In this document: one piece after another, positions 15,903 to 45,789 of the stretch
How positions within the stretch are numbered: position 1 is the first letter of the stretch
Layout: each line of letters opens with the position of its first letter
Assembly: GCA_005773635.1 (NCBI GenBank)
Contig: SXHN01000070.1
Location: 1-48,786, forward strand
DNA length: 48,786 nucleotides
Direction of reading: 5' to 3'
DNA from: Actinomycetota bacterium
Lineage (GTDB): Bacteria; Actinomycetota; Acidimicrobiia; IMCC26256; PALSA-610
The notes under the pieces: model-generated
Told to the model about the DNA's origin: nothing
Databases searched by the model: none
The model's input: only the letters and a program-made list of their open reading frames with translations
Program-made: the position numbers and the translations under genes

Positions 15903-15908
15903 GCTGCG

Positions 15909-15914: not shown

Positions 15915-15922
15915 TGTCGTTT

Positions 15923-16056: not shown

Positions 16057-16062
16057 GCGGGG

Positions 16063-17853: not shown

Positions 17854-18290
17854 CGTGAACCCTGCTCCTTGATCGTTCCTGCGCTACTGAATTTCACCCC
17901 AAGAACAGAACTCCACTCTGTGTCCTGCGAGTGCTGCAGGCTACGTGCGGCGGTGCACTCTGGCCGATACGCGACGGTCCCCAGTCGCCGACCTTGCACC
18001 AATAGTCACAAGCGAAGCCGATGGGCCTGACGGTTCAGAGCGCGCGCATCCGATTGTTACGGGCGTTGTGTTCGAGTTCGGCGAGGCCTAGGTGTTCCAG
18101 CAACGGCGGAATGTACATTCCGAATCGGCCCCTCAGACCCTTCTTGAGGCCGTACCAACCACCGATTGGATTTTCATCGGATCGACCCCAAGCCTCGACG
18201 GTTCCGTCCTTGGCAGGTTTTGTTCGTCGGCCGAGCCGAGATCCATCCAGTCGCCATGGTTTCTGTAGCATCGCGAGAAAAGGAGACGCC
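17854..18290. other. Intergenic stretch with an unassigned coding-like frame
   Basis: The 437 bases between the divergent monooxygenase and SnoaL-like genes hold no gene I can name. On the minus strand, 18035-18304 is an open frame of 89 codons with coding-like codon use that ends in LLEHLGLAELEHNARNNRM and a TGA. It overlaps the start of the SnoaL-like gene, so it may be the 3' remnant of a lost gene. The remainder shows no repeat or RNA-like structure. Confidence 0.3.
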
Positions 18291-18713
18291 ATGAGCGATG
18301 CCACCGCATTACGAGCTAGCCGGGAAGCGGTGATTCGGCGGCATATGGAGGCCGAGAATGCGCTTGATTTCGATGCTGCGCTAGCTACGTTTGCGCACCC
18401 TCGCTACGAACTCATTGGTCTCGATCAGGTGCACGACGGCGAGCAAGCTGTAGCGGAGTATTTCCGTCAAAGCCGCGAACCGTTTCCAGACCAACGCAAT
18501 GAAATGATCGCGATGCATCACGCTGATGATGTAGTGATCACGGAGTTTTGGTTGATGGGTACGCACCTAGGCGAACTGTTTGGTATTTCCCCGACAGGCA
18601 AGGAGTTCCGTGTACAGATGTGCGCGGTGTTCATGTTTGAAGGCGAAGGGCTCGTATGCGAACGCGTCTACTTCAATCCAAATCAGATTCTCGCGCAACT
18701 CGGTTTGGCGTAG
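18291..18713 (+). CDS. SnoaL-like / ester cyclase family protein
   Basis: A 140-residue NTF2-fold protein of the SnoaL-like polyketide cyclase group. Features are the opening helix REAVIRRHMEAENALDFDAAL, the HPRYEL strand, and the conserved F-x-x-P-x-x-R-x-E segment (FPDQRNEMIAMH) about residue 65, then ISPTGKEFRVQMCAVFMFEG. Members act as small-molecule cyclases, isomerases or hydrolases, and many have no known activity. The ATG at 18291 has AAAAGGAGA 4 bases upstream, which decides the start over the longer frame at 18021. It lies alone between the monooxygenase and the acyl-CoA synthetase operon. Confidence 0.8.
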   Translation: MSDATALRASREAVIRRHMEAENALDFDAALATFAHPRYELIGLDQVHDGEQAVAEYFRQSREPFPDQRNEMIAMHHADDVVITEFWLMGTHLGELFGISPTGKEFRVQMCAVFMFEGEGLVCERVYFNPNQILAQLGLA

Positions 18714-18750
18714 TCGACGACGAGGGCCGAGCGTGACGGTGCTCAAGGTA

Positions 18751-19041
18751 TTAGTTGGCAGCGATTTTGAACGGCGCCCGTAAGCCTTTGAATATTGGGA
18801 AGCGTCGGATGTTCAATGTCGCGAGTTCCAGGCCACGAGTCTCGGCTGCCGCCGCGATCAGATAATCGCCGAGACCGATGTTGCTATGGGATTTGCGGAA
18901 GCGCCGCATCATTTCACCGGCTCGCCTGGCGAGGACCTCATCGACGGTTTCGATTTTCATCGAATCAAGCAACGCCCACACTTCTCGCCGAAGCGGAATC
19001 TTACCGTTCGAAGCCGCAGTAGGTGATGGTTGGCAGAGCAC
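18751..19041 (-). pseudogene. 5'-truncated VapC-type PIN-domain toxin
   Basis: A 96-codon frame whose last 65 residues match the C-terminal half of a VapC/PIN ribonuclease: helix DEVLARRAGEMMRRFRKSH, the acidic motif IGLGDYLIAAAAE carrying one catalytic Asp, and the terminal ELATLNIRRFPIFKGL. The first 40-50 residues of a PIN domain, including the first catalytic Asp, are missing and replaced by unrelated sequence running from a GTG at 19041 that overlaps the stop of the acyl-CoA synthetase gene. No antitoxin gene is next to it. With half the active site absent it should be inactive. Confidence 0.7.
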
Positions 19042-20666
19042 TAAGGGTTGGAGGTTGTGAGGCTGGCGAGTGCGGTTTCTTTGGCCCAGCGATAGTCGGG
19101 TTTTCCTGATGGCGAACGCACGGTGTGATCGACGAACACGACGGCACGCGGCACTTTGTACCCGGCGAGATGCTGGCGGCAGTGGTCTTGAAGCTCGGCG
19201 AGCGACGGTTCGTTGCTCTTGTTGGCGCTGCGCAACTCCACCACCGCGGTCACCTGCGAACCGAAGCGATCGTTGGGTGTGCCCACGACAGTCGCGTCGA
19301 ACACTGCAGCATGGCTTTTCAACGCCTTTTCGACTTCTTCAGGGAAGATCTTCTCGCCGCCCGAATTGATCGACATCGAACCCCGTCCGTACACCGCAAT
19401 GGAACCATCGGCATCCAGTGATGCCATATCGCCCGGCACTGCGTAGCGCACACCGTTAATCGTCGGAAACGTTGCCGCAGTTTTCACTTCGTCTTTGTAG
19501 TAGCCGAGCGGAATGTAGCCACTGTTGGCGAGCATGCCTACACGCCCGTCTCCCGGTTCGCACAGCGTCCCGTCGTCGGCGATCACCACGTTGCCCGGTT
19601 CCATTTTGAATCGAGGCGCTCCGTCTTCACCTGTGCCGACGAGTGCTCCTTGGCCGCCAGTTTCGGAAGCGCCGAAACCATCGTGCACAAACGAGGTCGG
19701 GAGCAATCGAGCGAGATCTTCTTTCACCGACGGCGACAGGATTGCACCGCCTGATCCGTATACCAACAGCGATGACAAATCGTAGCTGTCTGGTCCCGCG
19801 GTTTCGAGATGGTCGACGATGGGACGCGCGTAGGCATCACCGATGGTCATCAACAACGCGACACGTTCCTCAGCGACGACGCGCAACGCGAACGCCGGAT
19901 CGAAACCTAAGTCGCGAATCAACACGCTGGTGCTGCCACCGAGGATCGCAGAAAACGCAAGCCAAAAACCCCCGCCATGCATGAGGGGGCACAAGGTGAG
20001 TGTTGCCGGAAGGATCGAGGGCTTTGATGCTTTCTCCGCGACATCATCAAGATTCGAGACCGCGGGTATGCCGAACGTCGCGTTGCCACTTCCGCCGATC
20101 GCCGACATGTAAATGTCTTCTTGACGCCACATCACACCCTTGGGCATGCCTGTGGTGCCACCGGTCCACAATCCGTAACGATCATCGGGTGAGCGGTCGC
20201 CGACGTTGGGGGCGGTCGTTGGATATTTGGCGAGCAATTGCTCGTAGTGATCGTTCGCGACGATTACAGGACACGTCCAAGCAAGTTTCGCGGCAGCGCG
20301 TGATGCTCGATCTTCAAGGTCGGGTTCAGTGACGACCACTTTCAGGTCAGCATTGTCGAACAGGTAGCTCAACTCTTCGTCGACGTAACGGAAGTTCACA
20401 TTCACGGGCACGGCTCGCACTTTGTACGCAGCCAGCGTGACTTCGATGTATTCGTTGCCGTCATAGAGGTGGCAGCCGACGTGGTCGCCTTCGCCGATGC
20501 CAAGTGCAACGAACGCGTGGGCGAGTTGGTTGACGCGTGCGTCGAGTTCGCTAAACGACGCTCGCATCTCGCGGGTACCGTCACCAGAACGCACAACTAG
20601 CGCGGGTTTGTCGGGCACCGTCGCGACGACGGTTTCGAAGATGTCGGCAATGTTGAGTCCAGTCAT
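19041..20666 (-). CDS. Acyl-CoA synthetase (FadD19-like, AMP-binding)
   Basis: A 541-residue ANL-superfamily ligase that activates a carboxylic acid with ATP and CoA through an acyl adenylate. The phosphate-binding loop WTGGTTGMPKGVMW is at 167-180, the A5-type DGFGASETGGQG at about 330, and the catalytic Lys522 is in SGKPDYRWAKE at the C-terminus. The WTGGTTGMPKGVMWRQED signature is typical of the mycobacterial FadD17/FadD19 group, which activates steroid side chains, so a steroid or branched fatty acid is a reasonable but unproved substrate. The gene follows the P450 gene by 44 bases on the same strand, and AAGGTGAG lies upstream of the ATG. Confidence 0.88.
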   Translation of the reverse strand: MTGLNIADIFETVVATVPDKPALVVRSGDGTREMRASFSELDARVNQLAHAFVALGIGEGDHVGCHLYDGNEYIEVTLAAYKVRAVPVNVNFRYVDEELSYLFDNADLKVVVTEPDLEDRASRAAAKLAWTCPVIVANDHYEQLLAKYPTTAPNVGDRSPDDRYGLWTGGTTGMPKGVMWRQEDIYMSAIGGSGNATFGIPAVSNLDDVAEKASKPSILPATLTLCPLMHGGGFWLAFSAILGGSTSVLIRDLGFDPAFALRVVAEERVALLMTIGDAYARPIVDHLETAGPDSYDLSSLLVYGSGGAILSPSVKEDLARLLPTSFVHDGFGASETGGQGALVGTGEDGAPRFKMEPGNVVIADDGTLCEPGDGRVGMLANSGYIPLGYYKDEVKTAATFPTINGVRYAVPGDMASLDADGSIAVYGRGSMSINSGGEKIFPEEVEKALKSHAAVFDATVVGTPNDRFGSQVTAVVELRSANKSNEPSLAELQDHCRQHLAGYKVPRAVVFVDHTVRSPSGKPDYRWAKETALASLTTSNP

Positions 20667-20710
20667 GAACTCACCTTAGGTTGATTCAGCAGCGATGTGC
20701 CAAGGGTTGC

Positions 20711-21883
20711 TCAGCTTGCGTCCCAACGTGCGCGCAGTCGAGGTGAGGACCGCAATATTCCGCCCGCAGGTTCGGCGCCATCAACGAGTTCAAGATTCGC
20801 GAGTCGAGAGACCAGCACCGAAAGTGCCGCGGTCATTTGCCGCCGGGCGAGGTGCGCTCCGGGGCAGAACTTCTCACCGAATCCAAAGCTCAGGGTCTCT
20901 CGCTGATCGCGATCAGGGTCGAAGGTGTTGGGGGCGTCGAACACTGCAGGGTCACGGTTGGCTCCAGCGATCGCGCACAGCACCAGCGAACCTGCAGGTA
21001 TCTCAGCTCGGCCAATCATTCCTGGCCGGGCCGCGATCCTTGGCAATACCGAAACCGGTGGTTCGAACCGCAGCGCTTCGATTACGAGTGATTCGCACTC
21101 ACGAGGCCCCGTGCGTGCCCGTTCGAGCATTTCCGGGCGGCTCAAGACGTGAAACAGCAAGCTGCTCAAGCCGTCGGAGGTTGTCGCTGCTCCAACAACG
21201 TAGAGCAGGCGGATGTGGTTGATGATTTCGTCGTCGCTCATACTGTCGCCGTTGTGTTTGTGCATCAACAAATGTGAGAGCACGTCGTCGCCAGGATTAT
21301 TTCGACGTTCGGTCAAGATCGGAGAAAGGAATTCGAAGACCTCCTGTTTCGCGATTTCTGAGCGTGCAGGGTCGACGGGGTGCGACAACAATGCTGCGGT
21401 CCACTTGCGTTGTCGATGTTCGCTGCCCATTGGGAGACCGAGCTTGCGCGAGATCGCCCAGAGTGGGAGCACTGATGAAAATGTGGTGACGAGATCTGCT
21501 TCGCCTTGGGCAGCGAAGCGGTCGACGATTTCGTGGGCGAGCGGCACGAGCGACTCGTCGACCCAACGGGTGATTCCTTGTGACCGAAACGCGGGTGTGG
21601 CGAGTCTGCGGGTGCGATCGTGATCGTCGCCGTCCATGGAGATGAACGTTGGTCCGACGGCGGGTTCGACCATGAACTGGTACGACGATCCGCCGGGAAA
21701 CTGTTTACTGTCTGCAAAATATGCTTTGAGGTCGTCGAATCGCGCGATGACGCGGGCAGGCATGCCGAGTAGCGAGGCAGTCGGCGGATCGACAGCCTCA
21801 CGAGCATCCGCAAGCATGCGATGCAACGCATCTCCTGGCACTGCATCGACCACGAGATCGGCAGGGAATTGGGTGACCGACAT
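20711..21883 (-). CDS. Cytochrome P450
   Basis: A 390-residue soluble bacterial P450 monooxygenase. The heme-ligand motif FGFGEKFCPGAH puts the thiolate at Cys340; the I-helix oxygen-activation motif GAATTSD is at about 230, and the K-helix ExxR is in EALRFEPP. It is similar in build to the CYP125/CYP142 and related steroid or fatty-acid hydroxylases, but the exact family cannot be assigned by eye. No ferredoxin or reductase gene is in the window. It starts with a leaderless-type promoter and is probably cotranscribed with the acyl-CoA synthetase, giving a hydroxylate-then-activate pair. The next gene upstream, the amidohydrolase-transporter operon, is divergent. Confidence 0.9.
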   Translation of the reverse strand: MSVTQFPADLVVDAVPGDALHRMLADAREAVDPPTASLLGMPARVIARFDDLKAYFADSKQFPGGSSYQFMVEPAVGPTFISMDGDDHDRTRRLATPAFRSQGITRWVDESLVPLAHEIVDRFAAQGEADLVTTFSSVLPLWAISRKLGLPMGSEHRQRKWTAALLSHPVDPARSEIAKQEVFEFLSPILTERRNNPGDDVLSHLLMHKHNGDSMSDDEIINHIRLLYVVGAATTSDGLSSLLFHVLSRPEMLERARTGPRECESLVIEALRFEPPVSVLPRIAARPGMIGRAEIPAGSLVLCAIAGANRDPAVFDAPNTFDPDRDQRETLSFGFGEKFCPGAHLARRQMTAALSVLVSRLANLELVDGAEPAGGILRSSPRLRARWDAS

Positions 21884-22009: not shown

Positions 22010-23206
22010 ATGTCCCTGAGTGATTCGACCGATTCCGCTGAGTCTCGTCCCGCAATTATTTCGTGCGACGGTCATGCATCCGGTCGCCCGAGTGATTACG
22101 CGCCGTACATCGAGGCTGCCTACCGCGAACGCTACGACGAATTCGTTGCGGTGTTGGAGCAACGCCGAATTTCGATGGAGGCGGCGCGCGACGCTGACAA
22201 GTCATTGTTTTCGAAACAAGGCAGCGACGCGTTCAACGATGAAGTAGGCGACGGTCGCGACGGTGAATGGAACTCAGACGTGCGCACCCGCGTGCTCGAT
22301 GGCGAAGGGGTCGTGGCGGAAGTGCTGTTCCCGAATCCGGGAGTACCGTTTGGAGCGTTTGGCGAAAGCGCCCAACACGAGCTTCGCGGGGTTGGCAATC
22401 GCGCCTATGACCGATGGTTGTTGGACTTCGCGAGTGACTTGCCGGGCCGTCGCGCCGCACTCGCCATGCTCGCGGTGCACGACATCGACGCTGCAGTCGC
22501 AGAGATCGAATGGGCTGCGGCTTCTGGTATGAAGGGTGTCATCATTCCGACGGTTCCTGGAGAAGGCTTGGCGCCATACGTCGATGATCGCTACGACCCC
22601 ATTTGGGCAGCATGCCAAGCTACGAGTTTGCCTGTCCATCTGCACAGTGGCGGAGGTACGCCGGAATATGGCAATTATGGCGTCGCGAGCATGATGTTGT
22701 ACGCGACCGAAACCACCTTTTTTGGACGCCGGCCGTTTTGGTGGCTGTTATGGGGTGGAGTGTTTGAGCGATTCCCGGAACTGCGCTTGGTGATCACTGA
22801 GGCTCGCGCCGACTGGGTGCCTGACACGCTGAAGTTGCTGGACGGCATTTACTCGGCGAAGTTCTTTAGCCACGCGCGCACCACTCTGAAGTCGACCCCA
22901 AGTGAATATTGGGCTCGGCAGTGCACGGTGGCTGCTTCGTTCATGGGCCCTGATGAGTCGGCACTGCGATACAAAATTGGTGTCGACAACATGATGTGGG
23001 GTGCCGACTATCCCCATATCGAAGGCACGTGGCCTCGTACCCGAAAATCACTTGCACGGTGTTTCCGTGGAATTGCGATCGACGAAACTGAACGGATGCT
23101 CAGTAGCAACCCTGCAAAAATTTACGGGTTCGATCTTGAAATGCTGCAAGCAGTCGCTGATCGTATTGGCGGACCGACGTACGAAGAACTTGTAGGTGCT
23201 GTATGA
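22010..23206 (+). CDS. Amidohydrolase family protein (metal-dependent TIM barrel)
   Basis: A 398-residue member of the amidohydrolase-2 superfamily, a metal-dependent hydrolase or decarboxylase. The first metal motif appears as DGH at 20-22, the second as PVHLHSGGG at about 205, followed by VITEARADWVPD and the C-terminal metal Asp in WGADYPHIEG. Such proteins are numerous in Acidimicrobiia and mycobacteria and are usually linked to degradation of aromatic or cyclic compounds. GAAGGAG precedes the ATG at 22010. Its TGA overlaps the ATG of the binding-protein gene (ATGA), so hydrolase and transporter are translationally coupled, implying that it processes the transported substrate. A second paralogue lies at 38123. 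Confidence 0.85.
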   Translation: MSLSDSTDSAESRPAIISCDGHASGRPSDYAPYIEAAYRERYDEFVAVLEQRRISMEAARDADKSLFSKQGSDAFNDEVGDGRDGEWNSDVRTRVLDGEGVVAEVLFPNPGVPFGAFGESAQHELRGVGNRAYDRWLLDFASDLPGRRAALAMLAVHDIDAAVAEIEWAAASGMKGVIIPTVPGEGLAPYVDDRYDPIWAACQATSLPVHLHSGGGTPEYGNYGVASMMLYATETTFFGRRPFWWLLWGGVFERFPELRLVITEARADWVPDTLKLLDGIYSAKFFSHARTTLKSTPSEYWARQCTVAASFMGPDESALRYKIGVDNMMWGADYPHIEGTWPRTRKSLARCFRGIAIDETERMLSSNPAKIYGFDLEMLQAVADRIGGPTYEELVGAV

Positions 23207-24573
23207 ACCGTCGCACGTTGCGGTTGGTGGTGACGACAACGCTTGTTGCTGTGGTGGGTTTGAATGCGTGCACCACGAGCAAGGCTGACAAGAACGGTAC
23301 TGACGACGGCAAGGGCACGACTGCGAGCGTTGACACGCGAACTGTCGCGGCCGGACCAACAACAGGGTTAACCGCCGACACCATCAAGATTGCAGTGCTA
23401 TGGCCCGACTTCGGTTCGCTCGTCGCGACCGGGCTTGTGCCCGACCTCGGACCGATCGAACAAGAAGTGACGGGGTACGTCAACTATCTCAATAAGAACG
23501 GCGGCATCGCGGGACGTCAAATCATCGCCACGTTCCACGATTTCGATCCTTCTGACCTGTCCGGTGCGAGTGCTCGGGCCGCGTGCTTGGAAGCAACTGA
23601 AGAAGATAAAGCTTTCGCAGTGATCGGGATGCCATCGTGGCCGCAAACCGGCACGTTATGTGTAGCCGAGGAACATGAAACGCCCATGATCGCTACCACA
23701 TCGTTGACGCCATCGGTTTCCAAACGAACGAACGGGCGAGCATTTTCGATGGCCATGGACTTGGTAAGAATGTCGCAAGGCTGGGTGCAAGTGCTCGATG
23801 ATCGAGGCGCACTCAAGGCTAAGCGCATTGGATTGGTCGTGGGCGATGGCGATATCGGCATCAAAGAAGCAGCCACCGACGGGATCGAAGCCGAACTCAA
23901 AGCACGAGGCTACGAGGTCATTGAGACAGTGGTGTTGCCGTGTTCAACTCAGTTTTGCGAACAGCATGAGAACGCCGTAGAAAAACTGCGCTCCGCTAAC
24001 GTCAATCTTGTTTTCGATCTTCTTGGTGCGGTATCCAGTCCAACGTTCATCAGCGCCGCGAACGCGGCGGGTTTCAAACCTCAATACACTTTCAGTTCGT
24101 CGTTGTTGAGTTCGACGGTTGCGAAGTTTCATGAGAGCGTCGCCCCATCGCTTGACGGCATGATCGGGGTTGGAGAATTCGGACCGAATCGACCGGGCGA
24201 CAAGCCACTGGCGCCATCGGAGTTTTCGGTCAAGTGCAACGATATCTATGAGAAGGCCTTCGGGTCGCGCCTCACAGCCGACGCAGCTGGTATGGCCAAT
24301 CAAGGTTGCGCAATGCTTGAGGTACTGAAGCGTGGCGCCGAGGGGGTTCCCAAACTCGGTCAAGAGTCGCTTGTGGCCGGGATCGAAGGCATCGGCGAAC
24401 TTGTGCTCGGTCCGCCGGCGCCTTCGTATTGCGACACACCCGAAGGGTCTATCTATTCGTTTGGGCCAGGCAAACATGATGCCGGTGATTGGGTGACCAG
24501 TCTCGCATTCGACGGTGCCACATCGCAGTTCTACCGCGAGGAACCTTGTCAGTGGATCGAGATCGATTCCTGA
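23203..24573 (+). CDS. ABC transporter substrate-binding lipoprotein (Liv/type 1 fold)
   Basis: A 456-residue solute-binding lipoprotein of the branched-chain amino acid/amide family. The lipobox LNAC puts the lipidated Cys at 23, followed by a Lys/Asp/Thr-rich linker to about residue 55. The type 1 periplasmic-binding fold begins DTIKIAVLWPDFGSL and continues through NKNGGIAGRQI, VIGMPSWPQTG and GLVVGDGDIG. Several cysteines (for example PCSTQFC) could form extracellular disulfides. Such proteins bind amino acids, amides, urea, aromatic acids or hydrophobic ligands; nothing here fixes the ligand. Coupled to the amidohydrolase by ATGA and to the next gene by a gap of at most 22 bases. Confidence 0.9.
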   Translation: MNRRTLRLVVTTTLVAVVGLNACTTSKADKNGTDDGKGTTASVDTRTVAAGPTTGLTADTIKIAVLWPDFGSLVATGLVPDLGPIEQEVTGYVNYLNKNGGIAGRQIIATFHDFDPSDLSGASARAACLEATEEDKAFAVIGMPSWPQTGTLCVAEEHETPMIATTSLTPSVSKRTNGRAFSMAMDLVRMSQGWVQVLDDRGALKAKRIGLVVGDGDIGIKEAATDGIEAELKARGYEVIETVVLPCSTQFCEQHENAVEKLRSANVNLVFDLLGAVSSPTFISAANAAGFKPQYTFSSSLLSSTVAKFHESVAPSLDGMIGVGEFGPNRPGDKPLAPSEFSVKCNDIYEKAFGSRLTADAAGMANQGCAMLEVLKRGAEGVPKLGQESLVAGIEGIGELVLGPPAPSYCDTPEGSIYSFGPGKHDAGDWVTSLAFDGATSQFYREEPCQWIEIDS

Positions 24574-24595
24574 TCTTGCCGTGACTCAAGACGAG

Positions 24596-26791
24596 ATGAG
24601 CACGACACCGGGCGATGCGTCGGAACTGGCACGAACAGTTCTCGAAGAAGAGTCGCGACGTCATACCCGCCAACATGAGCGATCGGCGGAAGTCGTGCTC
24701 CCCGACGACTTACTCCCAGGGGTTGGTGGCGCAGAAATTCCGTTGCGTGAGGCATTGCAGCGTGAGGGCGTTCGCACTGCGCTGATCGTCGGGCTGCTGG
24801 GTTTCGTAGGCGAGTTCGACAACACTGCAGTGAGCGTGCTCGCCCCGGAAATACAAAAGAATCTCGGGATTTCACAGGGTGCGGTGGTGGTGCTCGGCGT
24901 GATGTCGACCGCGATGTTTTTGTTAGGCGCGGCTCCGATTAGCACATTGGCCGACCGTTACCCGCGTAAGTGGGTTGCAGCCGCGTCGGTTGCATTTTGG
25001 ACTCTCGTCGTGTTTTCCACCGCGTTCGTTCGCAATGGTTTCCAATTCTTCCTCGTCCGGCTGGCCGCGGGGCTTGGTCATTCATACCAACTGCCCGTCA
25101 ATGGACCGTTGCTGATTGACACGTATCCCATCGAAGCCCGATCTCGTATCTTCGCGCTCACAGGTGCGTTGACGATGGTTGGTATCGCCGTATCGCCGGT
25201 GTTCGCGGGGACTGTCGCATCGATCGGTGACGGTACCGATGGTTGGAGATTGGTGTTTTTGATGACGGCCGTGCTGGCGTTACCTTTGGTGTTTGCGTCA
25301 TTGACGTTGCGAGAACCCAAACGCGGTCGCCATGAGATGCAAGCGGTGCTGGGTACTGAGATCGAATCATTGGGAACTGAATTGCCAATTTCGTTGTCAG
25401 TGGCGTTCGAGCGCCTCCGAAAGATTCGTAGTTTCTCCTACTTTCTCACGGGCATGGCCGCGCTTGGATTCGGACTGATTTCGTCGGGATACTTCGTCAA
25501 CTTCTATTTCGACAAGGAGCTTGGTCTCGACGCGCTGGAACGAGGGCTCGTCGGTTCGCTTACGTTCATTCCTGCGCTGTTCGTCATCCCGATTGTCGGG
25601 GCGCGGGCAGACGCACGGTTTCGTAAGAGCCCTCCTGCAGCGATGGTCTTGGTTGGTGCATTGATTGCAGGATTTGGCGCGGTGTTCACACTCGGATTGT
25701 GGATGCCAACGTTGTGGCTCATCGTGCCGCTGTTGGCAGCGGCAAACGCCATGTCGCGGGCAGCATTTGCGATTCTGCCTGCAGTGATTTCAACGATTAT
25801 TCCGTACCGTTTGCGCTCGCGGGGGAGCGCGCTCGTAGGGGTCTACATTCTGTTGGTTGGTGGGCTGGGTGGAGCCATCCTCACTTCGTTGTTTTCGAAT
25901 GCTTGGGGTGAACGACCTGCCCTCACCGCGATGATGTTGCCATCGACCGCATTGGGTGGAACGTTGATCGCGATGGGCGCCCGGCACGTGCGACGAGATA
26001 TTTCGCTGGTGGTCGAGGAACTCCGAGAAGAACAAGAAGAACACACGCGGCTCAAGGCGACTGACGCCGAAGTGCCGATGCTGCAAGTACGCAATCTCGA
26101 TTTCTCGTACGGCATGGTGCAAGTTTTGTTCGATGTTGAGTTCGAAGTGCGCAGCGGCGAGGTACTCGCGTTGCTAGGCACCAACGGAGCTGGAAAATCG
26201 ACTTTGCTTCGGGCTATAGCTGGCCTCGGTGTCCCCGAGCGTGGGGTCGTGCGACTTGAAGGGCGTACGATCACCTACGCCGACCCCGAGGCGCGTGCCC
26301 GGGCCGGAATCGTGATGGTGCAGGGCGGAAGCGCAACGTTTGGCGCGCTCAGCGTTGCCGAGAACCTTGCAATGGCTTGCTTTCGTTATCCGCCCCGCGA
26401 CGCCGACCAACGTATTGAGCGTGTGCTGGGGCAGTTTGCAATCTTGGCCGAGCGACGGCGCGATCGAGCCGATCTGCTGAGCGGTGGTCAGCAGCAGATG
26501 TTGGCGTTGGCGATGGCGCTCGTGCATGAGCCCAATGTGTTGTTGATCGATGAGCTCAGCTTGGGCCTTGCTCCGGTGGTCGTGCAAGAGCTATTGGCTA
26601 TCGTGCAACAACTTCGCGACCGCGGTCAGACGATGTTGATTGTAGAACAATCCATCAATGTTGCGTTATCGATTGCTGATCGAGCGGTGTTCCTCGAAAA
26701 GGGTGAGATCCGGTTCGTCGGCCCCGCGGAGCAATTGCGATCGCGCGACGACCTGGCGCGCGCGGTGTTCCTGGGTCACGAAGGCGGATGA
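24596..26791 (+). CDS. MFS permease fused to a LivF-type ABC ATPase
   Basis: A 731-residue fusion. Residues about 50-460 form a 12-helix major facilitator permease with the cytoplasmic loop motif LADRYPRKW between helices 2 and 3. A charged linker (VEELREEQEEHTRLK) leads to a complete ABC ATPase from about 495: Walker A GTNGAGKST at 528-536, signature LSGGQQQ at 628-634, Walker B VLLIDE at 648-653, and the VEQS switch typical of LivF instead of the usual His. It supplies the second ATPase for the fused LivHMG protein encoded next, overlapping it by ATGA. The start could instead be the GTG at 24581, which gives five more residues; no ribosome binding site is clear for either. Confidence 0.9.
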   Translation: MSTTPGDASELARTVLEEESRRHTRQHERSAEVVLPDDLLPGVGGAEIPLREALQREGVRTALIVGLLGFVGEFDNTAVSVLAPEIQKNLGISQGAVVVLGVMSTAMFLLGAAPISTLADRYPRKWVAAASVAFWTLVVFSTAFVRNGFQFFLVRLAAGLGHSYQLPVNGPLLIDTYPIEARSRIFALTGALTMVGIAVSPVFAGTVASIGDGTDGWRLVFLMTAVLALPLVFASLTLREPKRGRHEMQAVLGTEIESLGTELPISLSVAFERLRKIRSFSYFLTGMAALGFGLISSGYFVNFYFDKELGLDALERGLVGSLTFIPALFVIPIVGARADARFRKSPPAAMVLVGALIAGFGAVFTLGLWMPTLWLIVPLLAAANAMSRAAFAILPAVISTIIPYRLRSRGSALVGVYILLVGGLGGAILTSLFSNAWGERPALTAMMLPSTALGGTLIAMGARHVRRDISLVVEELREEQEEHTRLKATDAEVPMLQVRNLDFSYGMVQVLFDVEFEVRSGEVLALLGTNGAGKSTLLRAIAGLGVPERGVVRLEGRTITYADPEARARAGIVMVQGGSATFGALSVAENLAMACFRYPPRDADQRIERVLGQFAILAERRRDRADLLSGGQQQMLALAMALVHEPNVLLIDELSLGLAPVVVQELLAIVQQLRDRGQTMLIVEQSINVALSIADRAVFLEKGEIRFVGPAEQLRSRDDLARAVFLGHEGG

Positions 26792-29649
26792 TGGCCGCGA
26801 TCGTTGCATTCGCTGCGGACCGACAGGTGGTGTTCAACGGTCTGGTTGCCGGGATTACCTATGGCGTGTTGGCAGTCGGACTCATTTTGGTATTTCGCGC
26901 CAGTCGGGTGCTCAACCTCGTTCACGGCGAAATCGGGGCTTTCGCAGCGGCGCTGGTTGCCCGAATGGTGATCAATTGGCATATCAATTTTGCAGTTGCG
27001 GTTGTGGTTTCGGTGTTGGTCGGTGGCGTGTTTGGGGCCGCACTCGAACTCTCGGTTGTGCGGCGTCTCGCCCGCGCGCCGCGGGTGATTGTGATGGTGG
27101 CAACGTTGGGTATTACTCAGTTGGTGTTGCTTGCGCAGCTCAAACTCCCGCGACTTGTCCGATTCGATCGGTATCCGACCCCATTTCGTTCAACGTGGCG
27201 CATAGGCGGAGTTTTAGTGCGCAGCGAACACATGTTGATTCTGGTCATTGTGCCCGTGCTGGTTGCGTGTTTGAGTGTGTTCCTCAATCGCACACGGATT
27301 GGCACTGCGATTCGTGCAGCAGCAGCCAATCGCGACGCTGCTCGTCTATCCGCGATCAATGTTCGCGGGTTATCCACGTTGGTTTGGGCACTCGCCGGCA
27401 TGCTGGCAGCGCTAACGGCAATACTTGTCGCGCCGATCAAGGGATCTACGGCGGCGACCACGTTGGCGCTGGGCCCGTCGTTGCTTGTGCGGGCATTGGT
27501 GCCCGCGCTGATAGCTCGGTTGCGATCGATGCCAATCGCGCTCGTGGCGGGTGCCGGTATCGGCATCGTCGAAGCACTGTTGTTTTTCAACTTTTCGACG
27601 CAACCCGGACTCATCGATGCGGTGCTCTTTGTAGTGGTGGTAGTTGCAATTATCGCCGTTGTGCGCGACGAACGACCCGAACGTTCGGCATGGATGGCGA
27701 CCCCTCGCGGCAAGGCGATTCCCGTAGAACTGCTGGGCCTATGGTGGGTCCGGAGATTGCGACAACTCTTCATTTCGTTCTTGCTTGTCATCGTGGTGAT
27801 CGCCCCGCTCGTCGTCGATCGCCCGTCGCGTCACATGATGTGGGCGCGGATTGCGATCTACTCGCTTGTGGGATTGTCATTGACGGTGCTTTCAGGCTGG
27901 ACGGGCCAACTGTCGCTCGGTCAGTTCGCGTTGGTTGGTTTGTCGGGGATGCTGACGGCCGCATTTACCAACGGCCTTGAGTTCAGAATTGGATCGACAC
28001 TCGTGCAACTTCACGCATTGCCCTTCGGGGTCGCAGCGTTGATTGGTGTGATTGTCACGGTGTTGGTCGCGTTGGGCTTGGGTGCTCCGGCTCTGCGGAC
28101 GCGCGGGTTGTTTCTCGCGGTTACCACGCTTGCGTTTGCCGTGATGGCCCAGACATGGTTATTGGAGCGACCGCTACTTACTGGTGGCGAATCGATTGCA
28201 TTTCTCGGCCGCGCAAGTTGGGGTGATCGCATCTCACTTCAGTCGCAACGGAGCTACTACTACCTGTGCGTAGCGGTGCTGATCGTTGGCGCAGCGGTGC
28301 TTGGGCGAATTCGTAGGAGTGGTATCGGCCGATCGATGATTGCAGTGCGCGAAAATGAAACAGGGGCCGCCGCGCTCTCGGTATCTCCGACGCGTATCAA
28401 GATTGTCGCGTTTGGCGTTAGCGGTGCCTACGCGGGAGTAGCCGGCGCACTATTTGTGTCGTTGGTCGGTCAGCTCGACCCCGGACAACTCTTCACGCCC
28501 GATGAGTCGCTGCGCTCGGTATCTATTGCGGTCATCGGCGGCTTAGGTTCGATCGCTGGCGCGATACTCGGTGCGTTGTGGGTGATTGGCCTCCCGGCTT
28601 TTTTCGAAGATGCGGCAGAGGTGAAATTGCTAACGAGTGGCATTGGCGTGGTGATACTGCTCATGTATCTGCCTGGTGGTCTTGCCCAGATTGGTTATGC
28701 CGCTCGTGATGGCGTTTTTGGGTGGTTGGCTCGTCGAGTGAGCCAATCGGCGCCGGCGCCGATTGACCGTACCTCGATGCCGGTTCGGACGCGAGCGAGG
28801 CGACAACACGACGAAGTGTCGGCAAACGAAACGCTGGCTAGCGAGGCTCTCGTCAATGACGCGCTCATAACGAAAGAAGTGAGCGTTAACTTCGGGGGCC
28901 GCACCGCGGTCGATGGCGTATCGATACGGGTTGGTCGCGGCGAGATAGTTGGATTGATCGGCACCAACGGTGCTGGCAAGTCGACATTGATGAATGCAGT
29001 CGGCGGTTTCATTGCGTACCGCGGTTCAATTTCAATGCTCGGGCGCGAGATCGATGGTGTCTCTGCTGCTGGGCGAGCTCGATTAGGTCTGGGTCGTAGT
29101 TTCCAAGGCGCGGAGCTGTTTGGGGATCTCACGATCCGCGAAACAATCCAGCTTGCGTTTGAAGCGAGGGCCCGCACCGCACTGTTTGCAACGATGTTGG
29201 CGACGCGGTCTGCCCGCCGTGCGGAACGCCACAAAGTGTCGGAGGCCGAGGAGCTTGTTGCGTTCTTTGGGCTCGGTCGATACGCGGATCATTTTGTGAG
29301 CGATCTGTCGACAGGCACACGTCGCATTGTGGAGTTGGCGTGTCTCTTGGCATTGGATGCTCAAGTGTTGTGCCTCGACGAACCAACTGCGGGCGTTGCG
29401 CAGCGAGAAACAGAGGCGTTCGCGCCGTTGTTGCTGCGGGTGCGTGACGAACTTAACGCGTCGTTGTTGGTGATAGAGCACGACATGCCGTTTGTCATGG
29501 GAATCAGTGATCGGGTGTATTGCCTCGAAGCCGGCCGCATCATTGCTGAAGGCAGTCCCGTTGATGTACGCCGAGATCCGTTGGTGATTGGGTCGTATCT
29601 CGGCACCGATGCTCGTGCGATCGCCCGTTCCGGGGTTTCGCGCCAGTAG
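26788..29649 (+). CDS. LivH-LivM-LivG fusion (two permeases and one ATPase of a Liv-type ABC importer)
   Basis: A single 953-residue protein. Residues about 1-295 are a LivH-type permease (GITYGVLAVGLILVFRASRV opening), 320-650 a LivM-type permease (TVLSGWTGQLSLGQFALVGLSG, IGGLGSIAGAILG), and about 695-945 a LivG-type ATPase with Walker A GTNGAGKST at 725-733, the variant signature LSTGTRR, Walker B VLCLDEPTAGV and H-loop VIEHDM. The LSTGTRR signature is usual in actinobacterial permease-ATPase fusions. Together with the binding protein and the MFS-LivF fusion it completes a five-part Liv transporter in three chains. It is the last gene of the operon; the next gene begins 109 bases downstream with its own ribosome binding site. 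Confidence 0.92.
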   Translation: MMAAIVAFAADRQVVFNGLVAGITYGVLAVGLILVFRASRVLNLVHGEIGAFAAALVARMVINWHINFAVAVVVSVLVGGVFGAALELSVVRRLARAPRVIVMVATLGITQLVLLAQLKLPRLVRFDRYPTPFRSTWRIGGVLVRSEHMLILVIVPVLVACLSVFLNRTRIGTAIRAAAANRDAARLSAINVRGLSTLVWALAGMLAALTAILVAPIKGSTAATTLALGPSLLVRALVPALIARLRSMPIALVAGAGIGIVEALLFFNFSTQPGLIDAVLFVVVVVAIIAVVRDERPERSAWMATPRGKAIPVELLGLWWVRRLRQLFISFLLVIVVIAPLVVDRPSRHMMWARIAIYSLVGLSLTVLSGWTGQLSLGQFALVGLSGMLTAAFTNGLEFRIGSTLVQLHALPFGVAALIGVIVTVLVALGLGAPALRTRGLFLAVTTLAFAVMAQTWLLERPLLTGGESIAFLGRASWGDRISLQSQRSYYYLCVAVLIVGAAVLGRIRRSGIGRSMIAVRENETGAAALSVSPTRIKIVAFGVSGAYAGVAGALFVSLVGQLDPGQLFTPDESLRSVSIAVIGGLGSIAGAILGALWVIGLPAFFEDAAEVKLLTSGIGVVILLMYLPGGLAQIGYAARDGVFGWLARRVSQSAPAPIDRTSMPVRTRARRQHDEVSANETLASEALVNDALITKEVSVNFGGRTAVDGVSIRVGRGEIVGLIGTNGAGKSTLMNAVGGFIAYRGSISMLGREIDGVSAAGRARLGLGRSFQGAELFGDLTIRETIQLAFEARARTALFATMLATRSARRAERHKVSEAEELVAFFGLGRYADHFVSDLSTGTRRIVELACLLALDAQVLCLDEPTAGVAQRETEAFAPLLLRVRDELNASLLVIEHDMPFVMGISDRVYCLEAGRIIAEGSPVDVRRDPLVIGSYLGTDARAIARSGVSRQ

Positions 29650-29758
29650 CTCCGAGTGGGCCGAGATCCGACTTCGCGCCCGTCGTGGCACTCAATTCTT
29701 CATACTGTGGAACTCTCCACTCGAGGTGCGCGATACTGCGCGAGCGAAAGGAGTGCCA

Positions 29759-31006
29759 ATGACGGTTGATACTCGCACTCGGCTCTTGAAGGACATCCGA
29801 ACGCTTGAGCGCAATGAGGTTTTTGACTCGGTGCTTCCCGATGCAATTGCGGTGCACGGCGAACTCGCGGGGCGAGGCGTCGCGTACAAGCAGCTTCCGG
29901 CTGTTGGTTTGGTTGTTGATGGCAGAGGTGTGACCCTGTTCGAGGCGGGTGGTGAGTTGCGAATGCGCTCGGGTACCGAGGGCGCCGGTGTGGTCGCGGT
30001 ACTCGCGGAAGGGGCGTTGTCTGATCTTGTACAGGATGTGCAGTCCACGATGGGGCTCGCCATGACGGCGGAGGTGAAGCTCATCGAAGGCAATATCAGC
30101 ACGTGGATTGCGTGGGAACCGGCATTGCGCGCGCTGCTCGATGGTCGCAAGGTGCATGAGAGCGGAGACGTCACGTTTGTTGACCTTGATGGGCGAGCAC
30201 TCGACCTTGATCGCGTGTTCACCATCAATGATGACCGCGAGGAAGTCGCGCACTTTCTTGAACAAGCAGGGTTCCTGCATATTCGTGGTGTGTTCGAAGA
30301 GCATGAAATGGCAGCAGTCGGGGCAGACATCGACGAGTGGATTGCGCGTGCAACTCCCGACGACGGAGCTTCGTGGTGGGCTGAAACTGCCGACGGAGCG
30401 TCGCAGGCCGTGCGTGTGCTGTTCTTCTACGATAAGTCCGCAGCGCTGCGGGAGCTTGTCCACGATGCTCGATATCAATGGATCGGTTCGCTCACTGGTG
30501 GATGCCACGTGCATCGTGGTGGCGGTGAGGGTCTTGTAAAACCACTTGGCATTGTGCGCGGGCTGTCGGATTTGCCGTGGCACAAAGACTGCGGCCAAGG
30601 AAAACACTCGTATTCATGCAGTGGATTGACGTGTGGTATCTCAGTGACCGGTGCCGATCGCGTCAGCGGTGCGTTGGGCGTGATACCGGGCTCGCACCGA
30701 GCGAACACGATGGCTACTGGGCGCGACCCGTCGCTCGATTTGCGGCCTCGCATGTTGGAGACGCTCACCGGTGATGTGACTGTGCATTGCAGCGACACGT
30801 TGCATCGAGCGCATCCACCAATTGAACGACCGCGCCAAGTGGTGTATTCCGGTTTCGGTCTTGCACCGATTCCTGGCGACGAAGTGAAACCTGATCCGCG
30901 TTATAGCGCCGAGGCGCGAGCGAAGCTCAGCAGCGTGCAAGATCGCATCGCAGCCGCCGACAACGAATCAGACGACCGCAGATATCGGGCCAGCCGCGGC
31001 CGTTGA
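29759..31006 (+). CDS. Phytanoyl-CoA dioxygenase (PhyH) family protein with an N-terminal extension
   Basis: A 415-residue Fe(II)/2-oxoglutarate dioxygenase, hydroxylating a lipid or CoA ester. The metal motif is HKD at 275-277 (LPWHKDCGQGKHS), with the distal His at 349 or 352 in SDTLHRAHP and a 2-oxoglutarate Arg just after. PhyH core enzymes are about 280 residues; here about 160 extra residues precede the core. That part (ending DLDGRALDLDRVF) has the strand-helix rhythm of sterol-carrier SCP2-like domains, but I cannot confirm it. The ATG at 29759 follows GAAAGGAG by 5 bases. It stands after the transporter operon and is convergent with the carotenoid oxygenase, leaving only 4 bases between their stops. 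Confidence 0.85.
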   Translation: MTVDTRTRLLKDIRTLERNEVFDSVLPDAIAVHGELAGRGVAYKQLPAVGLVVDGRGVTLFEAGGELRMRSGTEGAGVVAVLAEGALSDLVQDVQSTMGLAMTAEVKLIEGNISTWIAWEPALRALLDGRKVHESGDVTFVDLDGRALDLDRVFTINDDREEVAHFLEQAGFLHIRGVFEEHEMAAVGADIDEWIARATPDDGASWWAETADGASQAVRVLFFYDKSAALRELVHDARYQWIGSLTGGCHVHRGGGEGLVKPLGIVRGLSDLPWHKDCGQGKHSYSCSGLTCGISVTGADRVSGALGVIPGSHRANTMATGRDPSLDLRPRMLETLTGDVTVHCSDTLHRAHPPIERPRQVVYSGFGLAPIPGDEVKPDPRYSAEARAKLSSVQDRIAAADNESDDRRYRASRGR

Positions 31007-31010
31007 GCGA

Positions 31011-32444
31011 TCAGTCGGCGGCGAACCAGTTGGCGTGAAAGCCGAACGGAATCCGCTGCGTGATGTGTACCCGCGCCACTGGCCCCGAGTTGAGGTCCTG
31101 AGCGTTGAAGACACAAAGATCGGTGCGATCCGTGGCGTCGTCGTAGACCGCGTTGAGTAGCCACCCATCGCCTTCGGATTGTGTCACGGGATTGGGAGCG
31201 AACACGCTTTCGCCCACGTGGCCGCTAGGGCCTGAGTTCCAGATTTGGCGGTCGCCGGTGACGTCGTCGTAGCGAACGATGCTGTCAAAATCTCCGAGGC
31301 GTCGTTCGGGCGCTACCGCAGCCGACATGTAGTGATAGCGAGTACGAACGCCGTTGTAGTCGTCGTTGAAACGGGCGAAGTCACCGCCGAGATCGTCGGT
31401 CTGTTCCCATCCGGCGGTACCGGACGCGAGGTCGACCCAAAACTTCGCGGGATATGGGGATGTGTTGTCGGCAGTCGAGGCGCCGGGTTCTGAGGCTGGG
31501 TTGATTCCGAAGTCGGGGTGTTCGAAGCGAGTCCCGGAGAATTCAATGCGGTCGCCTTCGGCCCATCCGTTCCAGAAATGCTGTACGTGTCCGGGATCTA
31601 TTTCGAACCAACGAATCTCATCTGCGTTGCCGAAACGGGGGAGTACTCCGATGCGCGTGCCGTTTTCCGGACGCCATTGCACCAACGGGCCTTTGCCCAT
31701 GTTGGCGATGTCCATCACGATTGGTGAATCGAGAAACACCGCGTGTTGTTCAGTGATGATGAAGTCGTGCATCATCACTGGTGCAGGGATGTCGATCTTG
31801 GTGTAGTGCACAATGGTGCCGCTGGCATCTGCGACGTAGTAACGAATCACTGGTTCAACGGGTGAGTACGAAAAGAAAAACATTTCGCCGGTACGGGGAT
31901 CGAGACGCGGGTGCGCAGTCATGGCGCCGTGCAACTTGCCATTGAAGTTGTATTCGCCAACGGTGTCGAGTGAGGCAGTGACCTCGGTTGGTAAGCCGCC
32001 TTCCCACAATGCGAGGTATTTCCCCGCGTGGCGGATGATGTGCGTATTCGCAGGGTTCTTCACTGGCCCCGCATCGCCGACGAGTGCGGGGTCGGGAAAC
32101 TCCATCACTTCACTGAGTCCGCGATACACCGAACGTCCGAGTGCGGCTTCGGCCTGAAGACCGCGAGACCGGATCCAGCGATTGCGATACGACGCCTGAC
32201 CGTTGTCAAGGGTGATGCCGTGCAGCATGCCGTCGCCGTCGAACATGTGATAATGGCCGATGGGCTGGAACAACGGGTTTGGACCGTTGCGTACGAAGGT
32301 GCCTTGCAAGCCAGCCGGGATCTGTCCGGTGACCTGGAGTGCTGTCACGTCGACTTCGGTACCGACCGGGAACATGTTGCCCGAGAGGTCTGGTTGGCCG
32401 TCGTTGTTGGTGACGTGGCCGATAAGGGTGGTTGCGCTGCTCAT
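31011..32444 (-). CDS. Carotenoid oxygenase (RPE65/CCD family)
   Basis: A 477-residue non-heme iron dioxygenase of the carotenoid/apocarotenoid and stilbene cleavage family. The seven-bladed propeller opens with FVRNGPNP, and the four iron His ligands are visible: H178 (TAHP), H226 (MMHDF), H289 (HVQHFWN) and H470 (FGFHANW). Length fits the bacterial members. Possible substrates are carotenoids, apocarotenals, stilbenes or lignin-derived styrenes; the context of oxidative lipid genes does not decide. A leaderless-type promoter precedes it. No carotenoid synthesis genes are in the window. Confidence 0.92.
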   Translation of the reverse strand: MSSATTLIGHVTNNDGQPDLSGNMFPVGTEVDVTALQVTGQIPAGLQGTFVRNGPNPLFQPIGHYHMFDGDGMLHGITLDNGQASYRNRWIRSRGLQAEAALGRSVYRGLSEVMEFPDPALVGDAGPVKNPANTHIIRHAGKYLALWEGGLPTEVTASLDTVGEYNFNGKLHGAMTAHPRLDPRTGEMFFFSYSPVEPVIRYYVADASGTIVHYTKIDIPAPVMMHDFIITEQHAVFLDSPIVMDIANMGKGPLVQWRPENGTRIGVLPRFGNADEIRWFEIDPGHVQHFWNGWAEGDRIEFSGTRFEHPDFGINPASEPGASTADNTSPYPAKFWVDLASGTAGWEQTDDLGGDFARFNDDYNGVRTRYHYMSAAVAPERRLGDFDSIVRYDDVTGDRQIWNSGPSGHVGESVFAPNPVTQSEGDGWLLNAVYDDATDRTDLCVFNAQDLNSGPVARVHITQRIPFGFHANWFAAD

Positions 32445-32450
32445 GGCTGC

Positions 32451-32456
32451 ACTCTA
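32451..32456 (-). promoter_or_regulatory. -10 box of a leaderless-type promoter
   Basis: On the minus strand TAGAGT lies 6 bases before the ATG of the carotenoid oxygenase at 32444, with no ribosome binding site between. Confidence 0.45.
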
Positions 32457-32540
32457 CTAAACAGTGTTCACCAAGCTGCCAAGGCTGCAGAATCGTTGTC
32501 TAGGGCGGCCTGTAGCCCTAGAGAACTGCCGCAGGTCGAG

Positions 32541-33119
32541 TTACGGGGAACGTTGCGCCTCGAGTTCGGCGATCCGTTGCTGGAGTGGTTCGATCGCGGC
32601 CTGCACCATTTCCTCGGTGTAGCGCGGGGTGATGAACTTTGGACAATTCCAGTCGAATGCTTCGATGGTCACGACGACTGCCGCGTTGGCGCGCCCACCT
32701 CCGAGTCGTTCGACGAGTGCCGCGTCGGGGTTGTCGATGCGCTTGGCCCGACCGAGCAATTTGAGACGTGTCCGGCGCGGGTAATCCATCACGAAGATCG
32801 AAACCTTGTCGTTCACGTCGAGATTGCCGGCGGTGACAAATTGACGGTTACCGCTGCGCTCCAGCCACGCGATAGTTGTGTCGTCGATCAGACCGACGAA
32901 ACCGCTCGGGCCGCCGCGATGTTGGATATAGGGCCAGCCATCGTTGTTGACGGTAGCGAGATACAAGCTGTCGGCAGCAGTCAGGAACTCCTGTTCATAT
33001 TGCCCCAACGCTGCGGGTGGCGCGTGGGTTGCCGCGGCGGCATAGTGCTCGCGCGAGCCGTCGGTTGTTTGCCGTTGTTGTACAGCATCGGTGAATGCGA
33101 TGTCGGCGAAGTGTTGCAT
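32541..33119 (-). CDS. Pyridoxamine 5'-phosphate oxidase family protein
   Basis: A 192-residue flavin-binding split-barrel protein of the PPOx family (FMN or F420 reductase type). The core has FLTAADSLYLATVNNDGWPYIQHRGG in outline, with PYIQHRGGP at about 64-72 and the DYPRRTRLKLLGRAKR strand at about 113-128, and ends in a short coiled tail (PLQQRIAELEAQ). It follows the TetR gene by 2 bases, so both are one operon controlled by the palindrome upstream of tetR. Members with this architecture bind FMN and reduce quinones or nitro compounds; the substrate here is unknown. Confidence 0.85.
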   Translation of the reverse strand: MQHFADIAFTDAVQQRQTTDGSREHYAAAATHAPPAALGQYEQEFLTAADSLYLATVNNDGWPYIQHRGGPSGFVGLIDDTTIAWLERSGNRQFVTAGNLDVNDKVSIFVMDYPRRTRLKLLGRAKRIDNPDAALVERLGGGRANAAVVVTIEAFDWNCPKFITPRYTEEMVQAAIEPLQQRIAELEAQRSP

Positions 33120-33121
33120 AA

Positions 33122-33703
33122 TCAGTTCCTTTGGTCATCGTGGCTTGTGAGTTGGTTTGGGAGTGATTTCAATGAGCGTTCGAAAGCCGTGGTGTCTCCG
33201 GTGACCCGAGCAAGTACGAGCGCGCCTTCGATGTTGGCGACCGCGTCTTGCGCGCATTGGCGAGCGCGACGGCGAGGCATGCCCGCTTCGACTCCGATAG
33301 CGGCAAACACGCCAATCCAAGCTTCGGCGGCGCTGCGCAGATTCGCGCTGATTGACTCGTTGACGGCTTCGACCGACAATGCTTCGAGCAAACACGGCAT
33401 CGTGCCCTCTTTGTAGAATTCGCGCAAGTTTGCAGCGATCGTTTCGACGCGTTTCGCGACGGGCGTTTCGTGCTGCAGCGCGGGCGCCAAGACCACATTG
33501 GCAAAGGTCGCGCCAACGCGCTCGGTGACTTCGAGAGCCATTTGTTGCTTGCCGTTTGGAAAGCGGTGATACAAGCTCGACTTTTCGAGTCCCGTTGCCG
33601 CGGCGATGCGGGCCATGGACGCCGATTCGTACCCGACCATCCGAAACAGATGGGTCAAGCGGTCGAGCAGTACATCGTTGCTGACGGTCGGGTTTCGCGG
33701 CAT
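33122..33703 (-). CDS. TetR family transcriptional regulator
   Basis: A 193-residue repressor-type regulator. The helix-turn-helix is at about 13-50 (THLFRMVGYESASMARIAAATGLEKSSLYHRFPNGK in pieces), matching the YxxF-type subgroup that often pairs with flavin proteins, and a C-terminal ligand domain follows. The ATG at 33703 is chosen because a leaderless -10 box lies 6 bases before it and the longer frame would run through the operator. Autoregulation is very likely, since a palindrome overlaps the -10 box. Downstream target: the PPOx gene, 2 bases on. The inducer is unknown, likely a small electrophile or hydrophobic compound. Confidence 0.9.
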   Translation of the reverse strand: MPRNPTVSNDVLLDRLTHLFRMVGYESASMARIAAATGLEKSSLYHRFPNGKQQMALEVTERVGATFANVVLAPALQHETPVAKRVETIAANLREFYKEGTMPCLLEALSVEAVNESISANLRSAAEAWIGVFAAIGVEAGMPRRRARQCAQDAVANIEGALVLARVTGDTTAFERSLKSLPNQLTSHDDQRN

Positions 33704-33709
33704 GTCTGT

Positions 33710-33715
33710 ACTATA
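33710..33715 (-). promoter_or_regulatory. -10 box of the tetR-PPOx operon (leaderless type)
   Basis: On the minus strand TATAGT lies 6 bases before the ATG of the regulator at 33703. The operator palindrome overlaps its upstream end. Confidence 0.5.
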
Positions 33716-33729
33716 CCGAACGATCGGTA
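33714..33729. promoter_or_regulatory. TetR operator palindrome
   Basis: TACCGA (33714-33719), a 4-base spacer ACGA and TCGGTA (33724-33729) form a perfect inverted repeat, matching the ACCGA-N4-TCGGT pattern of many TetR operators. It starts 11 bases upstream of the tetR ATG and overlaps the -10 box, so binding would block RNA polymerase. It is also 134 bases before the divergent SnoaL-like gene, which it might control too. Confidence 0.7.
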
Positions 33730-33862
33730 CAATTACAAGCGCGTTCACTCAGGTACAAATCCGCCGCTCCTTTGGCCCTCGCCGTGGCTTTTCCTGGGCA
33801 ATTGGCCAATGATGCTGCGCAAAGCATTGACGCCCCGTGGTTTGCAATGTGAGTATCGCAAC

Positions 33863-34201
33863 ATGGACGCAGTTGCAGCAGTTGAAATGTTTGGTGAAGC
33901 CTGGGCGAGCCACGACCTTGAACGGACGTTGAGTCTGATCACTGAGGACTGTGTGTTTGATGCCACGGGCCCCGCACCCGACGGCACGCGCAGCGTGGGG
34001 CGGGCTGCGATTCGCGACGCTTGGGGACCAATCTTCGCCGACTCCACGAGCTTGTTTGAAGTCGAATCCACCTTCGTGCTCGGCGATCACGTGGTGCAAC
34101 AGTGGCGATACTCATGGGCCGACGGCCATGTGCGCGGCATCGACCTGTTTCGGGTCGAAGGCAACCTAATCGCCGAGAAACATTCGTACGTTAAGGGTTG
34201 A
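33863..34201 (+). CDS. SnoaL-like / NTF2 family protein
   Basis: A 112-residue NTF2-fold protein of the nuclear transport factor 2 or SnoaL-like family. It shows the typical opening (FGEAWASHDLERTLSLITEDCVFDATGP in outline), the VGRAAIRDAWGPIF helix at about 43-56, and the ending VRGIDLFRVEGNLIAEKHSYVKG. The shortest start, ATG at 33863, fits the fold; no good ribosome binding site is seen. Enzymatic role unknown. It is divergent from the TetR operon, and may share its control region. Confidence 0.7.
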   Translation: MDAVAAVEMFGEAWASHDLERTLSLITEDCVFDATGPAPDGTRSVGRAAIRDAWGPIFADSTSLFEVESTFVLGDHVVQQWRYSWADGHVRGIDLFRVEGNLIAEKHSYVKG

Positions 34202-34279
34202 TTCCGGCTCGCGCGGGTCGAAACAGACCACTGCACGCGCTGCGGGTGTGACACCGAATCAGGCGGTAGTTAAGGTCAG

Positions 34280-35329: not shown

Positions 35330-35397
35330 TTCGACAGGCGTCTCCTTGTGTCTGGCGCTGCGGACACTCAGCATTGCTCACCGTCGTTAAATTGCTT

Positions 35398-45724: not shown

Positions 45725-45789
45725 AGTCAAGGGCGGCTCTGATATTTTGCGAATTGGGTTCTACCGCGCACTGATCGCGGGGCCCGCCC

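Follow-up and report, generated by a model that had tools for sequence, protein, structure and literature searches.

A HAAT-type importer of actinobacteria whose LivF ATPase carries an N-terminal Spinster-like MFS domain

Importers of the branched-chain amino acid/urea (HAAT) type, such as LivKHMGF of E. coli and UrtABCDE, combine a Peripla_BP solute-binding protein (SBP) with two BPD_transp_2 permeases and the ATP-binding cassette (ABC) ATPases LivG and LivF, which have intact Walker motifs. Fusions of such importer domains, LivM-LivG and LivH-LivM-LivG, are known in actinobacteria; to our knowledge, none of these adds a secondary carrier. Here we describe a locus with a further fusion of the same kind in a 48,786-nucleotide contig (SXHN01000070.1, referred to in full as the window) from an Actinomycetota bacterium of the class Acidimicrobiia (GCA_005773635.1), in which a LivF-type ATPase is preceded in the same chain by a major facilitator superfamily (MFS) domain. 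Like the described HAAT importers, the locus has two BPD_transp_2 permeases, a Peripla_BP SBP and two ATPases, one LivG-like and one LivF-like, that keep both Walker motifs. Unlike LivKHMGF and UrtABCDE, its permeases and LivG form one chain, its LivF has the MFS domain at the N-terminus, and its NCBIfam scores lie far under the LivF, LivG, UrtD and UrtE equivalog cut-offs. The component families are known; what is new is their combination, a variant of the HAAT importer. In the literature searched, which omits most subscription journals, no description of an MFS-ABC or MFS-LivF fusion was found, and it is quite possible that public domain databases list this architecture without comment.

The locus consists of four genes (Table 1) that look like one translationally coupled operon, since the Amidohydro_2 and SBP genes overlap in ATGA, the MFS-LivF and LivH-LivM-LivG genes overlap in ATGATG, and 22 bases lie between the SBP and MFS-LivF genes. 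The likeliest start of MFS-LivF is the ATG at 24596, from which the N-termini of its relatives align, and a single open frame then holds both an MFS_1 domain (aa 68-426, with motif A LADRYPRK at aa 118-125) and a LivF/UrtE-type ABC_tran domain (aa 495-728). The following gene encodes, also in a single frame, two BPD_transp_2 domains and a LivG-type ABC domain with BCA_ABC_TP_C. The best NCBIfam matches are LivG/UrtD for one ATPase, UrtE/LivF for the other, and LivM, UrtB and UrtC for the permease part. Walker A (GTNGAGKST) is intact in both ATPases, as is Walker B (LLIDE and LCLDE). An earlier reading of this DNA from its letters alone, hereafter the sequence-only reading, had described a single operon with both fusions, an MFS loop motif LADRYPRKW and two pairs of Walker motifs, and all of this is borne out by the open reading frames, Pfam, NCBIfam and the gene overlaps.

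Table 1. Genes of the operon and domains of the MFS-LivF fusion, with positions in the window
Feature	Position	Strand	Evidence and remarks
Amidohydro_2 protein	22010..23206	+	Pfam; PDB sequence search; accessory, outside conserved transporter
Solute-binding lipoprotein, Peripla_BP_6 (PF13458)	23203..24573	+	Pfam; lipobox-like VVGLNACTT in sequence
MFS-LivF fusion, 731 aa	24596..26791	+	Pfam, NCBIfam, alignments, AlphaFold model, structure comparison
Spinster-like MFS domain, about aa 49-462	24740..25980	+	Pfam MFS_1 aa 68-426; structural match
Last MFS helix, extended into cytosol, aa 439-487	25910..26056	+	AlphaFold model, alignments
LivF-type ABC ATPase, aa 495-728	26078..26779	+	NCBIfam; 1ji0 Z 32.9
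LivH-LivM-LivG fusion, 953 aa	26788..29649	+	Pfam, NCBIfam

The fusion recurs in Acidimicrobiia, in other actinobacteria and in cultured Frankia, Parafrankia and Embleya. The arrangement of the window, MFS-LivF with LivH-LivM-LivG (type A), was present in about 100 loci, and a second, LivH-LivM with MFS-LivF-LivG (type B), in about 30, seen in 10 rows at first, two of which are one gene of the window's own genome, and afterwards in all 20 of the 20 additional regions picked from type B matches. In types A and B alike, the MFS domain is joined to LivF within a full LivH, LivM, LivF and LivG set and always lies N-terminal to LivF. Where a type A locus has sufficient flank, MFS-LivF nearly always has the LivH-LivM-LivG fusion as its neighbour, and an SBP adjoins most type A loci, on either side. 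The window's genome has three copies: that of the window, one on contig C45 that is 48% identical to it and is followed by LivH-LivM-LivG, and one on contig C60 (7364-10429; loci L003 = L137) in which a LivH-LivM chain precedes a single MFS-LivF-LivG chain. The MFS half was found in 85 of 296 genomes of the class (E <= 1e-60), and strong full-length matches in 19 of 396 genomes of a thinner sample of the phylum. Scanning 84,980 species genomes with the junction alone as query gave 240 relatives, the best 80 of which are mainly metagenome-assembled genomes (MAGs) of Acidimicrobiia, plus isolates of Frankia, Parafrankia and Embleya; these isolate genomes carry one to three copies each. One MAG filed as Acidobacteria also carries the fusion. 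A plasmid search returned the full fusion only in the isolate Embleya sp. NBC_00888, where the same junction lies, in a stretch without annotation, on a long replicon of 5.7 Mb that is reported complete. Viral contigs yielded no relative, and a phage origin was dropped.

Recurring as it does in many Acidimicrobiia and also in cultured Frankia and Embleya, the MFS-LivF arrangement is, on the evidence of the genomes, no accident. We practically discount the explanation that misassembly, a sequencing error or chance read-through has linked two genes: more than a hundred loci share the junction, and the independent assemblies that they come from include those of isolates and the Embleya replicon. 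Nothing supports this explanation, as the sole apparent split between MFS and LivF (L122) turned out to be a stretch of ten N where the assembly has a gap. Nor do homologous operons encode the two parts as separate neighbours, there being no intact pair of adjacent, separate MFS and LivF genes among the loci examined. Of the other short-frame MFS matches examined, L123 and L125 are contig ends, and L124 and L126-L131 are free MFS genes around which the retrieved flanks contain no Liv genes.

Two further observations concern the loci themselves. In L044, L052 and L053, two distinct MFS-LivF systems with their binding proteins lie head to head, a few kilobases apart. L063 (CAMDCC010000291.1), from a MAG titled Bifidobacterium breve, holds an Acidimicrobiia-type fusion matching L018 (genome G055, same order as the window), and its title is probably a mislabel.

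AlphaFold folds the whole MFS-LivF chain with high confidence (pLDDT 92.1, pTM 0.88). In the model the final MFS helix runs unbroken from residue 439 to 487, pointing to LivF, and the LivF part matches 1ji0 (Z 32.9). The alignments show a conserved ARxxRxDxSLVVEELxEEQEE in the helix joining the two domains, and the MFS-to-LivF spacing, measured roughly from domain envelopes, is constant to within about two residues in nearly every locus. The median ratio of nonsynonymous to synonymous substitution (dN/dS) between close pairs is 0.063 for MFS, 0.057 for LivF, 0.102 for LivH, 0.062 for LivM and 0.071 for LivG; for L044 and L052 the MFS sequence came from another fusion close by, which raises some of the maxima and hardly affects the median. 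Purifying selection on the MFS half is thus as strong as on the ATPase, and together with the confident fold this agrees with the impression of the sequence-only reading that nothing looks dead. Across 54 loci MFS, LivF, LivH, LivM, LivG and SBP co-vary (r 0.90-0.97), as expected of one inherited unit.

The membrane half has a 12-helix MFS fold whose nearest relatives are Spinster (Spns) carriers. Its profile matches HnSpns best (6e8j, 3e-34), and its model matches human Spns1 best (9boi, lysophosphatidylcholine-bound; Z 38.1), with Z 37-38 over about 400 residues for Spns1 and Spns2. Like HnSpns, MsSpns and human SPNS1 and SPNS2, it has motif A, and most copies have an acid in transmembrane helix 1 (TM1) and an Arg in TM4. 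The motif A Asp120 is kept in 107 of 109 type A and 10 of 10 type B copies and the TM4 charge-relay Asp175 in every fused copy, which places both in at least 98%. Almost every copy also has Trp217 and Arg407, TM4 Arg155 is retained in 90 of 109 type A and 9 of 10 type B copies, and the TM1 Asp position mostly holds an acidic residue. In Spns carriers a TM4 Glu, tuned by the TM1 Asp and the TM4 Arg, is the main proton switch (E129 in HnSpns, PMC9440201; E126 in MsSpns, PMC13192786). Unlike these carriers, window-type proteins have K, Q, R, H or A at this position, carry a C-terminal ATPase and are only about 17% identical to human SPNS. Because the TM4 Glu is missing in nearly all copies, the MFS half is, as judged from its residues, Spinster-like rather than a member of Spns, and we do not assume proton coupling. 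The seven free MFS homologues examined likewise have no TM4 Glu; its loss is therefore not tied to the fusion.

The order of membrane domain and ATPase recalls single-chain ABC exporters. Unlike in those exporters, the membrane half is a Spns-like PF07690 MFS_1 domain, not an exporter transmembrane domain, and separate LivH and LivM permeases are present. In a Foldseek comparison with the PDB, the matches listed are whole ABC exporters and chains of ATPases; none of them joins an MFS domain to an ATPase in one chain, which is not proof of absence.

In a first tree, the fused LivF domains separate with full support from the ordinary LivF of the same genome. Relatives without MFS in the LivF tree are either single-chain LivH-LivM-LivF-LivG proteins or LivHM plus LivFG pairs. 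Seven of the single-chain proteins (L144, L146, L147, L148, L149, L150 and L151; about 1200-1300 aa) are kin of type B. Judging from the domains of these relatives, the ABC core is complete without MFS, and because they exist we conclude that it does not need it. Since type B clusters with the forms without MFS (support 99/94) and type A forms a separate group (90/89), the MFS domain may either have been gained once and lost several times or have been gained twice, alternatives between which the data do not decide. Two free MFS genes, L124 and L131, and only these, nest among the fused ones, inside type B, which suggests occasional fission of the fusion. At one locus, L078 (6714-9011), the MFS domain is about 80% identical to its nearest relatives, LivF 95-99% and the SBP 85-98%, with patchy differences; this looks like divergence or recombination confined to the MFS half.

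Based on these observations, we tentatively favour a HAAT-type importer with a working Spinster-like carrier tethered to LivF, one per complex. The importer has a complete set of HAAT parts, with the MFS as an N-terminal domain of its LivF. LivF and LivG would pair as a heterodimeric ATPase and, as they are different domains, each complex would hold one MFS domain. Gene adjacency and co-inheritance point to MFS and LivHM being in one complex, and the continuous helix would hold the MFS domain beside the LivH/LivM channel in the membrane. The SBP-LivHM-LivGF part would take in its solute using ATP. The MFS domain would act at the same spot as a carrier of another solute, probably an amphipathic one, or else of a product or of the importer's own solute, most likely without direct drive by ATP. 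The proposal of the sequence-only reading, two translocation paths sharing a single ATPase pair, is one of several readings; that the LivF/LivG cycle drives or allosterically gates the MFS domain through the shared helix, giving one ATPase pair and two translocators, we consider improbable. Three observations weigh against a tethered working carrier. The MFS domain diverges faster than the ATPases (mean identity 45% vs 65%), which fits a changing substrate but also a less constrained domain. The TM4 Glu is retained in only 2 of 119 fused copies, the window having His162, which bears on energy coupling. Finally, the AlphaFold model of the type B three-domain chain has middling confidence in its overall arrangement (pTM 0.69), and was therefore left out of the geometry arguments.

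A carrier without direct ATP drive is the most likely of the readings in our ranking, followed by a regulatory or assembly domain and then by an ATP-powered MFS. In the second of these, which we regard as unlikely, the MFS half would not transport; it would sit in the membrane as a sensor or assembly domain, reading a ligand and tuning LivF in a transceptor-like manner. In its favour, the ARxxRxDxSLVVEEL helix is conserved and of nearly fixed length and the pTM of the chain is high, which suggests that the two domains are held in a defined geometry and not loosely tethered; the proton switch typical of Spinster carriers is missing, and sister transporters without MFS exist. However, the gating elements of a carrier (the motif A Asp, the TM4 Asp and mostly the TM4 Arg) are kept in nearly all copies, and the entire 12-helix fold is under strong purifying selection. 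An ATP-energised pump, in which ATP binding or hydrolysis by LivF/LivG would move the MFS domain through the shared helix, could draw on the unbroken helix, the near-constant linker and the lost TM4 Glu. The last of these is weakened as a sign of ATP coupling, since free homologues without an ATPase have also lost this residue; furthermore, LivH and LivM already partner the ATPases in every complete locus, and we know of no MFS protein driven by an ABC ATPase. We rate such a pump as improbable. Lower still we place the view that the fusion merely equalises the amount and location of two independent transporters in one catabolic island. Neighbouring genes of lipid/terpenoid-catabolism type would fit it, as would L078, where MFS has diverged while LivF and the SBP have remained close to their relatives, but the fusion has been long conserved with little fission, two free MFS genes alone being nested among the fused ones.

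The first gene of the operon does not belong to the conserved transporter. The sequence-only reading had linked the system to an amidohydrolase and a binding protein; the SBP does accompany most type A loci, whereas a strong Amidohydro_2 match adjoins the transporter in just 4 of about 120 loci. The gene order of the operon is repeated in L055, with a strong match nearby in L076 and L111. Because it is absent from most loci, we consider the enzyme accessory. Its supposed identity as an amidohydrolase also needs revision. In PDB sequence searches the closest solved structures are PtmU3 and DitZ, both for this protein and for a second Amidohydro_2 protein of the window (38123-39379), and PtmU3 is a non-heme diiron hydroxylase of diterpenoid-CoA (PMC7782822, PMC10127204). 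The operon protein shares with PtmU3 the metal-ligand motif DYPHxEGTxPRT (here DYPHxEGTWPRT) and has the ligand pattern of the amidohydrolase superfamily, DxH, H, E, DxxHxE. Its alignment with PtmU3 covers DYPHxEGT as well as the HxH His and the TEA/AEA Glu, and the N-terminal DGH, outside that alignment, was read from the sequence. Since the first protein keeps the diiron ligand motif, the two are probably diiron oxygenases acting on acyl- or terpenoid-CoA, not amidohydrolases.

The operon is flanked (14409-21883 and 29588-37267) by genes for a DMFA2_C protein, FMO-like, SnoaL and P450 proteins, an acyl-CoA ligase, a PhyH dioxygenase, an RPE65-type oxygenase, a luciferase-like monooxygenase and a mycothiol-transferase-like protein. 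This oxidative island suggests degradation of hydrophobic compounds. Products of genes near the other loci, noted with no background rate, include acyl-CoA dehydrogenases, acyl ligases, enoyl-CoA hydratases and P450, and uptake of hydrophobic acids such as terpenoids would fit. Neither LivH-LivM nor the SBP had a match when searched by sequence against the PDB, so neither gives a hint of the substrate. Further along the window, two Calx-beta domain proteins flank a methyltransferase, one with a SURNod19 match (41074-42681) and the other with Big_3_5 and a weak neocarzinostatin-like domain (44123-45730).

MFS secondary carriers and ATP-driven ABC transporters are usually treated as mechanistically separate. 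A fusion of the two that is found across several actinobacterial classes, with its halves under similarly strong selection, offers a natural system for asking directly what an ABC ATPase can do to an MFS carrier, be it to gate, to regulate or to power it, and its presence in cultured Frankia, Parafrankia and Embleya makes this question testable.

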